Below the pieces are notes generated by a model. That model worked only from the letters and a program-made list of their open reading frames with translations. It was not told where the DNA came from and did not search any database. A DNA stretch of 64,000 nt. Source: Burkholderiales bacterium. GTDB lineage: Bacteria > Pseudomonadota > Gammaproteobacteria > Burkholderiales > Burkholderiaceae_C. Location: assembly GCA_947453625.1 (NCBI GenBank), contig CANGHK010000028.1:1-64000 (forward strand), read 5' to 3'. The number at the start of each line of letters is the position of its first letter. Position 1 is the first letter of the stretch. Below, piece by piece: positions 3 through 11,677 of the stretch. Both the position numbers and the translations under genes were made by a program.

Positions 3-779
3 ACCGATCTGGCGGCGGTGCGCGGCGCCGATCTGGTGCTGTTCTGCGTCAAGTCCACCGACACCGACGCGGTGGCGCGCCAGATTGCGCCGCTGCTGGC
101 CGCCGACGCGCTGGTGCTCGGCCTGCAGAACGGCGTGGACAACGCCGCGACGATGCAGCGGCATCTGCGCCAGACCGTGGTTCCGGCGGTGGTCTACGTG
201 GCCACCGCGATGCCCGGTCCGGGACGGATCCAGCACTTCGGCCGCGGTGATCTGGTGATTGGCGCGCTGGGCGCCGGGCAGCGCGACGAGGCCTTGCTGC
301 AGCCGCGACTGCAGGCCGTGGTCGAGCTGTTTGCCAGCGCCCAGGTCAAGGTGCGGATCTCGGCCGACGTGATGGCCGAACTGTGGCTCAAGCTGGTCGT
401 CAACTGTGCCTGGAACGCGTTGTCTGGCCTGGCCAGGCTGCCCTATGGCCGGATCGCGGATCGGCCGGGCATCACCGAACTGCAGCGCGCGGTCGTGATG
501 GAGGTGGTGGCCGTGGCGCATGCCGAAGGCCAGCCGCTGGCGCTGCAGGCCGCGCTCGACGCCGTAGACCGCATCGCCAGCGCGATGCCGGCCCAGCACT
601 CCTCGACCGCGCAGGACATGGCCCGCGGCAAGCCCAGCGAGATCGACCACATCAACGGCTATGTGGCGCGGCGCGGCACTGAGCTGGGCATCGCCACGCC
701 GGTCAACCAGACGCTGCACACACTCGTCAAACTGGCCGAGAGCGTCGCTTGTGCGCCGCGTTCGACGCAGTCGTCCTGA
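3..779 (+). CDS. panE: 2-dehydropantoate 2-reductase, 3' part (5' end outside window)
   Basis: This enzyme reduces ketopantoate to pantoate with NADPH in pantothenate and CoA synthesis, in the cytoplasm. The reading frame is open to the left edge, so the N-terminal Rossmann glycine motif is missing from view. Visible family signs are the FCVKSTD stretch, LQNGVDN, the C-terminal helical domain with LWLKLVVNCAWNALSGL, and KPSEIDHINGYV. The visible part is about 258 residues, against roughly 300-330 for the family. panB and panC follow on the same strand after a 120-bp gap, which supports the assignment. ApbA/PanE homologues that act on other 2-keto acids exist, but the neighbours favour ketopantoate. 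Confidence 0.9.
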   Translation, partial: TDLAAVRGADLVLFCVKSTDTDAVARQIAPLLAADALVLGLQNGVDNAATMQRHLRQTVVPAVVYVATAMPGPGRIQHFGRGDLVIGALGAGQRDEALLQPRLQAVVELFASAQVKVRISADVMAELWLKLVVNCAWNALSGLARLPYGRIADRPGITELQRAVVMEVVAVAHAEGQPLALQAALDAVDRIASAMPAQHSSTAQDMARGKPSEIDHINGYVARRGTELGIATPVNQTLHTLVKLAESVACAPRSTQSS

Positions 780-8609: not shown

Positions 8610-8649
8610 AACGGGCGTTTTCACCCCCCTGCTGCGCTATCCTCGCGGC

Positions 8650-9288
8650 ATGAGCAGCCCAGACGATTGGATCAGCAGCGCCGACCAGGCTTTGCGCACC
8701 TTGAGCCGCAGCGCGCATGCCGCACGCGCGATGCCGGTTCCGGCGCCCGGCAGCGGGGGTGCGGGGCAGGCGCTGTCGCCTGAACAGCGCCGACTGTCAG
8801 GCGCGCTGATGCGGGTCAACCATGTCGGCGAGGTCTGCGCGCAGGCACTGTACGCCGCCCAGGCCCTGACCGCCCGCACGCCGGCCTTGCGGGACCAGAT
8901 GCGGGCCGCAGGCCGCGAGGAGACCGACCATCTGGCCTGGACCGAGCGCCGACTGCGCGAGTTGGACGCGCGCACCAGCCTGCTCAACCCCTTGTGGTAC
9001 GCCGGCGCCTTCGCGATCGGGCTGGCCGCGGGCCGGGCCGGCGACCGCATCAGCCTGGGCTTCGTGGTCGAGACCGAGCGCCAAGTGGAAGCCCATCTGG
9101 CCGGCCACCTGGAGCGCCTGCCCGACGACGACCTGGCCTCGCGCGCGGTGGTGGCCCAGATGAAGGACGACGAATCCCGCCACGCTGACCAGGCCTTGCA
9201 GGCCGGTGCCACGCCGATGCCGGCGCCGGTGCGCTGGCTGATGCGAGCAGCAGCCAAGGTGATGACGCGCACCGCCCAGGTGCTCTGA
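8650..9288 (+). CDS. coq7: 2-polyprenyl-3-methyl-6-methoxy-1,4-benzoquinone hydroxylase (Coq7 family)
   Basis: This is a di-iron monooxygenase that adds the last ring hydroxyl in ubiquinone synthesis, associated with the inner membrane. The start is the ATG at 8650 (MSSPDDW), giving 212 residues as in other betaproteobacterial Coq7; an upstream in-frame extension has no family match. The iron ligands are all visible: Glu61 in NHVGEV, Glu91 and His94 in EETDH, Glu143 in ETERQVEAH, and Glu175 and His178 in DDESRH. A hydrophobic stretch near residues 116-128 probably contacts the membrane. The gene is read divergently from the porin. Confidence 0.93.
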
Positions 9289-9363: not shown

Positions 9364-9786
9364 TCAGGTCTCGACGATCTCGTGGCTGGTGCTGATCTCG
9401 GCGGTCTTGCCCAGCATGATCGTGCCCGAGCAGTACTTCTCATGCGACAGCGCGATCGCACGCGCCACCACCGCGTCCGCCAGCTTGCGGCCGCTGACCG
9501 TGAAGTGCAGGTTGATGTGGGTGAACACCTTGGGATCGGTGGTCGCGCGCTCGGCCTGCACCTTGACCGTGCAACCGCTCACGTCGTGGCGTCCGCGCTT
9601 GAGGATCAGCACCACGTCGTAGGCAGTGCAGGCGCCGGCACCGGCCAGCAGGGTTTCCATGGGCCGCGGCGCCAGATTGCGGCCGCCGCCGTCGGGTGCG
9701 CCGTCCATAGTCAGCAGATGGCCGCTGCCGGTCTCGGCCACAAAGCCCATGCCGCTACCCGGCACCCAGTGAATCGTGCATTCCAT
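9364..9786 (-). CDS. OsmC-family peroxiredoxin-like protein
   Basis: This 140-residue protein belongs to the OsmC/Ohr fold, which reduces organic hydroperoxides with a Cys pair. The two conserved cysteines are Cys53 (in GAGACTAYDVV) and Cys119 (in HEKYCSGT). The N-terminal domain and PMETLLAGAGA match the YhfA-like subgroup of OsmC rather than Ohr. The physiological substrate is unknown. Its 3' end faces coq7 across a 75-bp gap. The gene starts at 9786, and the sRNA/ilvA intergenic region lies upstream of it. Confidence 0.88.
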   Translation of the reverse strand: MECTIHWVPGSGMGFVAETGSGHLLTMDGAPDGGGRNLAPRPMETLLAGAGACTAYDVVLILKRGRHDVSGCTVKVQAERATTDPKVFTHINLHFTVSGRKLADAVVARAIALSHEKYCSGTIMLGKTAEISTSHEIVET

Positions 9787-9921: not shown

Positions 9922-9950
9922 TTGCGGCGCAGCATTTCAGACGCTAGACT
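9922..9950 (+). promoter_or_regulatory. Predicted sigma-70 promoter of the small RNA/leader
   Basis: A TTGCGG -35 element (9922-9927) and a TAGACT -10 element (9945-9950) are separated by the ideal 17 bp. Transcription would start near 9957, just ahead of three consecutive hairpins and a strong terminator. The -35 match is moderate and the -10 is fairly good, so the call rests mainly on spacing and on the structured element downstream. Confidence 0.5.
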
Positions 9951-9956
9951 GGCTTC

Positions 9957-10060
9957 ATCGATGGGCAAGCCGGTTTATCGGCTGGTTCATCAGGCAGGTT
10001 GTCTCCTCCACCTCCTCCATTGGTGGATTAAGCCCAGGGCTCGCGCCCTGGGTTTTTTTT
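9957..10060 (+). ncRNA. Candidate small RNA with exposed CCUCC loop (or ilvA leader)
   Basis: This is a roughly 104-nt element in the 349-bp gap between the OsmC gene and ilvA, and no gene is seen in the rest of the gap. From the predicted start it folds into three hairpins. The first is AGCCG/CGGCT (9968-9983), with loop GTTTAT. The second is TCCACC/GGTGGA (10007-10027), with loop TCCTCCATT. The third is a terminator. The pyrimidine-rich loop and flank carry repeated anti-Shine-Dalgarno CCUCC motifs, reminiscent of the CCUCCUCC-loop sRNAs reported in proteobacteria. It could act in trans on ribosome-binding sites. It could instead be the attenuated leader of ilvA, whose own GGAGG site (10122-10126) is complementary to the loop. 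Confidence 0.55.
10033..10060 (+). terminator. Rho-independent terminator upstream of ilvA
   Basis: An 8-bp stem (CCCAGGGC/GCCCTGGG) with a TCGC loop is followed by eight T residues on the plus strand. No protein gene on this strand ends nearby (coq7 ends 745 bp upstream), so it most likely ends the small RNA or acts as an attenuator 75 bp before the ilvA start. Confidence 0.85.
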
Positions 10061-10135
10061 CGGGGAACGGCCGGGCAAGCGTTGGGTGATGCACCGCTAT
10101 CATGCTGCGCTGCACAAGCCACGGAGGCTGCCGCC

Positions 10136-11677
<1,542 letters not shown>

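Follow-up and report, generated by a model that had tools for sequence, protein, structure and literature searches.

A small RNA of the known family RF02278, encoded in a 64-kb stretch of Burkholderiales DNA (the window, by which we mean the whole 64,000 nucleotides analysed), is preceded by a conserved box that overlaps its predicted −35 element and resembles the operators of PhaR, the PHB regulator; it is this putative PhaR-type operator at the promoter that we regard as new here. The reading we favour, to which we assign a probability of about 0.7, is that a trans-acting, anti-Shine-Dalgarno sRNA of family RF02278 carries a PhaR operator in its promoter, is induced with PHB alongside a second RNA of the same seed from the 3' end of phasin mRNA, and lowers the expression of uptake and catabolic genes. 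Family, neighbourhood, promoter, box, seed, phasin boxes and phasin 3' RNA are the parts of this reading that come from sequence, and the proposed link of the sRNA to the PHB regulator is well supported at the level of sequence.

A cmscan of the window returned one match above its cut-off, to RF02278 (Betaproteobacteria toxic sRNA; E = 3.7e-11; Table 1), which is also the single match in the organism's own genome at E ≤ 0.001. The locus has the two hairpins, the second of them an intrinsic terminator, and the unpaired CU-rich 5' end by which family members are recognized. Because the match exceeds the cut-off, the class of RNA is not new, contrary to the earlier note on this DNA, which had taken the element for an unannotated one; by predicted structure the locus is unremarkable for that sRNA family. 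Much else that the note described was borne out: a promoter-like pair at exact 17-bp spacing, three hairpins, a terminator that ends in eight T (10053–10060), UCCUCC in the loop of the middle hairpin (10013–10018), a further CCUCC in the flank (10005–10009), a GGAGG site ahead of ilvA (10123–10127), and an intergenic gap that runs from osmC, divergent and starting at 9786, to ilvA, starting at 10136. Folded from 9957 to 10062, the RNA forms the three hairpins and the terminator at −50 kcal/mol (z = −5.57; 0 of 200 shuffles were as stable), and a terminator scan called a terminator-like site at 10030–10055. A promoter scan of the window found none, the TTGCGG/TAGACT pair included (0.3 expected), and by manual count the pair has 7 of 12 matches to the sigma-70 consensus; what argues for the predicted promoter is its conservation. 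We conclude from sequence and predicted fold that the element at this spot is a real gene.

Table 1. Features of the sRNA locus and its neighbours; positions are those of the window
Feature	Position	Strand	Basis
coq7, upstream neighbour, start provisional	8641..9288	+	NCBIfam NF033656, 303 bits; present in many relatives
Divergent OsmC-family gene	9364..9786	−	NCBIfam NF008009, above cut-off
−35 hexamer TTGCGG	9922..9927	+	sequence; TTGCNN-16..18-TANNNT conserved
PhaR-type operator (putative) TGCGGCGCAGCA, overlaps −35	9923..9934	+	motif match and conservation
−10 hexamer TAGACT	9945..9950	+	sequence; TANNNT kept at 16–18 bp
Predicted primary transcript	9957..10062	+	fold; start inferred from −10
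Leader hairpin	9960..9991	+	fold; sequence differs among relatives
Small hairpin, in the long form pairs part of the 5' seed	9992..10004	+	fold
Seed UUGUCUCCUCC, unpaired 5' end of processed form; last bases begin stem 1	9999..10009	+	
RF02278 match, full model 1–64	10000..10061	+	66.3 bits, cut-off 50
Hairpin 1, UCCACC/GGUGGA, loop UCCUCCAUU	10007..10027	+	fold and alignment pairing
Intrinsic terminator, eight T	10030..10060	+	terminator scan and fold
ilvA, biosynthetic threonine ammonia-lyase, downstream neighbour	10136..11677	+	TIGR01124, 813.5 bits

RF02278 scores above cut-off in 35 of 60 relatives and in 144 of 200 genomes of the organism's own family; among 274 genomes spread over the class, three lie above cut-off, all from that family and one of them the organism's own, and weaker matches (E ≤ 0.001) occur in 83. 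We oriented 115 loci, drawn from 76 genera: osmC is the divergent upstream neighbour in 113 of them and ilvA the downstream one in 108, and the order coq7–osmC–sRNA is found in the window and in many relatives. This set omits L011, which has only 37 nt upstream, L043 and L044, which are second copies, L036 and L037, weak matches from the same genus, and every locus from beyond the family. Of the above-cut-off matches in the family for which there was as yet no locus, 60 were added in score order, in three batches, with second species of some genera skipped (for example G360, G479, G474, G472, G471 and G352), and the set is therefore enriched in high scores; the first locus of each genus served as its representative (n = 76). 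One genome of the order, G042, has nine RF02278 matches, of which two are separated by about 380 bp, and the two copies examined there (L028 and L041) have no box upstream.

The box, TGCRNYGCANMA, stands upstream of the sRNA in 106 of the 115 loci and 71 of the 76 genera, and is absent from nine loci; 1000 permuted motifs reach at most 12 of the 115, and at −450 to −300 the box itself occurs in none of them. Its half sites are constant and its middle bases variable. The −35 hexamer consists of the base preceding the box and the box's first five bases, and in box-bearing loci the best TANNNT falls at 16–18 bp in 98 of 106; shuffling the sequence behind the box lowers this to 8.7%. Passages of the cited papers give the PhaR motif as TGCRNYGCASMA in Bradyrhizobium (PMC6201568), YTKNTGCRNYGCANMAR in Ralstonia eutropha (PMC12849132) and TG[N]TGC[N]3GCAA in Herbaspirillum (PMC3206438). 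The stricter TGCRNYGCASMA is present at 68 of 115 loci, and the window's own TGCGGCGCAGCA shares all 12 letters with a PhaR-repressed cyoA site of B. diazoefficiens, as quoted from PMC6201568. A conserved operator at the promoter that matches the published motif, as expected of a member of the PhaR regulon, is what we find at these 106 loci. Since the count in the 64-kb window is by itself near expectation (4 box matches, 2.86 expected), the case for the box rests on conservation. The organism itself encodes PhaR, as do 199 of 200 family genomes, which leaves practically no contrast group without PhaR.

Outside the family, where osmC is kept, the box is found in three of six loci (L012, L013 and L018; not L039, L042 and L045); at loci without osmC it is found in none of seven, two of which are second copies within the family. 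Scanning named genomes for the combination of box and seed gave at least 118 stretches, a number to be read without a control count, and among the matches listed are Variovorax, Polaromonas, Sphaerotilus, Roseateles, Paraburkholderia, Pandoraea, Herbaspirillum, Collimonas, Polynucleobacter and Pelistega. The window holds a second PhaR-type box (TGCTGCGCTGCACAA, 10103–10117) between the terminator and ilvA; boxes occur there in only 22 of 108 gaps, and we do not claim it as a conserved element. Elsewhere in the organism's genome a PhaR-like palindrome lies upstream of an isocitrate lyase gene (contig C65, L096, about 1501, + strand).

The same box recurs in all 26 phasin promoters tested, that of the organism included (permuted motifs reach at most 3), and 24 of the 26 have two boxes, 56–59 bp apart; the sample is 30 loci less three in which no start was found and one that was incomplete. 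Every one of the 22 main-type phasin loci, which come from the organism's own genus (21) and from one other genus (1), shows TTGTCTCCTCGG, a hairpin and a terminator 37–128 nt past its stop codon. In the organism's own genome a double-hairpin RNA with the UUGUCUCCUC seed lies after the phasin gene (contig C75, L125, 2144–2220, + strand); it matches RF02278 at 28.0 bits, under the cut-off, and for the sources of this phasin 3' RNA Rfam lists RF02278 at 27–29 bits in four of six, with none for L224 and L227. Its alignment, of 23 sequences including one from another family (L232), shows covariation and beats all 500 shuffles on all five measures. Two of three weak same-genus matches to RF02278 lie directly after a phasin gene (G001 and G008; not G002). 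Among eight weak matches from other genomes, picked regardless of phasins, four lie 3' of phasin-like genes and four do not adjoin a phasin; of the former, two come from other genera of the family and two from other families, one of the phasin matches being weak (29% over 110 aa), and their seeds are UGUCUCCUUGG, CGUCUCCUCC and AGUCUCCUCC. A further locus, L399, was used in the search for this comparison only. At eight phasin loci of other types the seed is present in L232, a variant in L230 and none in five, L235 having been read in the wrong frame, and the eight plasmid phasins examined, out of 33 records, have no 3' RNA.

The alternative that survives best, though we consider it unlikely, retains the trans-acting RF02278 sRNA but has the box read by another regulator, or serving the divergent osmC gene, with PHB uninvolved. 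The box is tied to PhaR by motif only, the organism's own phaR promoter has no exact copy within 300 nt upstream, the box stands between two divergent genes, and the S17 RNA of B. pertussis is reported, in passages of PMC11722255, to be under Bvg-linked control. Yet the box sits in the −35 element on the sRNA strand, at fixed spacing from the −10 in nearly all box-bearing loci; its distance is steadier to the sRNA (sd 17) than to osmC (sd 60); and the phasin promoters tested carry the same box without exception. We accordingly prefer the operator of a PHB-linked sRNA, with PhaR as the protein that probably binds it.

Ten bases of the RNA, UUGUCUCCUC, starting one base before the RF02278 match, are identical in 76 of 76 genus representatives, and the C that follows is kept in 75. 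The loop of hairpin 1, by contrast, varies, and the leader sequence is unconserved except for its last bases. Because the seed is invariant while loop and leader are variable, the working part would be the unpaired 5' end, and not the loop on which the earlier note had centred. A lack of conserved stems in relatives, which the note had named as a refutation, is not what we see: across the representatives 100% of the cells of stem 1 are paired, and one of its pairs changes from C-G to U-A in 9 of 75 distinct sequences. In alignment A1, held in the window's register, the terminator is paired in only 52% of cells and a slide of +1 scores higher, a weakness that arises because this alignment is not structure-aware; its whole-structure covariation is matched by 10 of 500 shuffles. 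The conserved 5' end is complementary to GGAGGAGACAA, an extended Shine-Dalgarno sequence. The note's proposal is supported in that the locus would encode a separate small RNA bearing an anti-Shine-Dalgarno sequence, and this RNA most likely acts in trans.

Such a sequence might serve a general growth-inhibiting RNA, one that titrates many Shine-Dalgarno sites or mimics the 16S rRNA tail and has no specific targets; cloned members of RF02278 inhibit the growth of E. coli, according to passages of the cited literature. We hold this to be improbable. The available text of PMC11722255 describes the S17S form as hardly toxic in E. coli, its over-expression leaving exponential growth unimpaired, deletion of S17 is reported to raise about 92 genes, and the UUGU beyond the anti-Shine-Dalgarno core is conserved, which indicates a longer target match (GGAGGAGACA). 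That the element is instead a cis-acting leader or attenuator of ilvA, its CCUCC loop pairing with the downstream GGAGG as the earlier note had also proposed, is very hard to credit, for although ilvA usually lies downstream and a 5-nt complement to the loop exists in the window, a strong terminator separates the sRNA from ilvA, the loop varies among relatives, the seed complement has no run of 5 nt in common with 61 of 108 ilvA start regions (and 8 or 9 nt in common with 3 of the 108), and family members at other loci (L012, L013 and L018) have no ilvA within the stretch examined.

For an sRNA acting in trans, we searched the organism's genome for GGAGGAGAC before ATG, as a perfect 9-nt match, with the reversed pattern as control. 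This gave four sites against one; one of the four is the sRNA's own antisense, and the other three precede a sigma-54 activator gene (L359), the gene of a TctC-type binding protein (L360) and a short frame of unknown identity. Four against one is not clearly above chance, and duplex energies for L359/L361, L360 and L357 are circular, because these were found by their match. At the sigma-54 activator gene (contig C59, L359, 1498–3015, + strand) the perfect match to the seed complement extends to 10 nt just before the ATG. Four activator homologs at ≥71% identity have seed matches of 10, 7, 8 and 8 nt, and matches of at least 8 nt occur in 5 of 23 homologs (23 of 30 loci), whereas among 222 starts of ilvA and osmC they occur in 4; the first of the five homologs was itself identified through its match. 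The seed match at the sigma-54 activator thus appears to be partly kept.

The role of PhaR as the bound protein, the sign of its control, processing, Hfq dependence and the targets are the parts of the favoured reading that we infer. Without PHB, PhaR would block the sRNA promoter at the −35 operator. Passages on phasin control (PMC4873508, PMC12849132) report that PhaR leaves its operators once PHB forms, and nascent PHB granules may likewise draw it off the sRNA promoter, as at phasin promoters. Transcription would then start near 9957 and stop at the terminator at 10060; by analogy with S17, the long RNA would be trimmed near 9999/10000, leaving a stable double hairpin with unpaired UUGUCUCCUCC at its 5' end, which could cover the ribosome-binding sites of target mRNAs. 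PHB synthesis would free the phasin promoter too, giving rise to a second RNA of the same seed at the main phasin mRNA's 3' end, so that carbon storage would switch on two RNAs and bring uptake and catabolic genes down. Because PhaR is also able to activate, as passages of PMC6201568 and PMC12849132 state, the sign of its control may go either way. The conserved PhaR-type site at the promoter suggests that the cell lowers nutrient uptake while it stores carbon. With somewhat less assurance than for the locus itself, we think it probable that the PHB sensor PhaR has a riboregulatory arm in the Burkholderiales, in which the autonomous S17/RF02278 sRNA between osmC and ilvA and the phasin 3' RNA, through the shared seed UUGUCUCCU, throttle uptake, catabolic and sigma-54 regulator genes upon PHB synthesis.

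A search of the literature on PhaR with sRNA terms found no link to the RF02278 family, though an earlier report is possible, and the portions available of PMC11722255, PMC5688073, PMC7011215 and PMC6337395 contain no relevant passage under PhaR or phasin terms. What drives the accumulation of B. cenocepacia sRNAs, the RF02278 family included, is stated to be unknown in a passage of PMC5688073, and the riboregulation of PHB in Cupriavidus necator is called undeciphered in a passage of a 2021 review (PMC8401924). The operator and the phasin RNA of the same seed offer a testable answer to both gaps, namely that carbon storage sets the level of the RNA. If true, this would agree with the reported increase of family RNAs in medium with glucose and with the growth slowed by over-expression, and bioplastic production would gain a control point.

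Among known members of RF02278, the relatives of the window sRNA are ncS03, ncS05, ncS27/bdhR1 and ncS62 of B. cenocepacia and Hsnc059, 063, 086 and 107 of H. seropedicae, with which it shares the full-length match, the double hairpin, the CU-rich unpaired 5' end and the terminator. It differs in copy number, with one RF02278 copy in its own genome as against three to five in Burkholderia (from a passage of PMC5688073), and in its PhaR-type promoter box, which goes unmentioned for RF02278 members in the literature passages available. In the same source (PMC5688073, in part), ncS03, ncS05 and ncS27 are 8.0, 6.9 and 4.3 fold up in glucose medium, and over-expression of ncS27 slows growth. Two other RNAs, Neisseria NmsRb (RF02877) and Burkholderia anti-hemB (RF02837), have a similar double-hairpin, CU-rich design, but their models score far under cut-off here (27.9 bits against 52 and 26.6 against 49.5). 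Closer in its control is MmgR of Sinorhizobium meliloti, an sRNA that passages of PMC12542648 and PMC8401924 describe as repressed by PhaR/AniA, by way of a promoter dyad and with a link to phasins; MmgR, however, belongs to an alphaproteobacterial family of its own, and the likeness is one of control logic, not of membership.

A further comparison is with Bordetella S17; because it also adjoins coq7, the window locus is by neighbourhood its probable ortholog. The following features are drawn from passages of one source (PMC11722255, a preprint). Like the window sRNA, S17 of B. pertussis lies beside coq7, has a long form that ends at a terminator and has a conserved 5' site; its promoter, TTGCAT and TACTAT with a 17-bp spacer, has a −35 that starts with TTGC as here. 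The two differ in that S17 is flanked by a glycosyltransferase gene and coq7 and is Bvg-linked, whereas the window sRNA lies between osmC and ilvA. S17 depends on Hfq and is processed by RNase E to a form of 67 nt, and its 5' Site 1 represses a sigma-54 activator, as compensatory mutations showed. Of the seed matches in the organism's own genome, those before the sigma-54 activator and TctC-type genes are at the kinds of target reported for S17.
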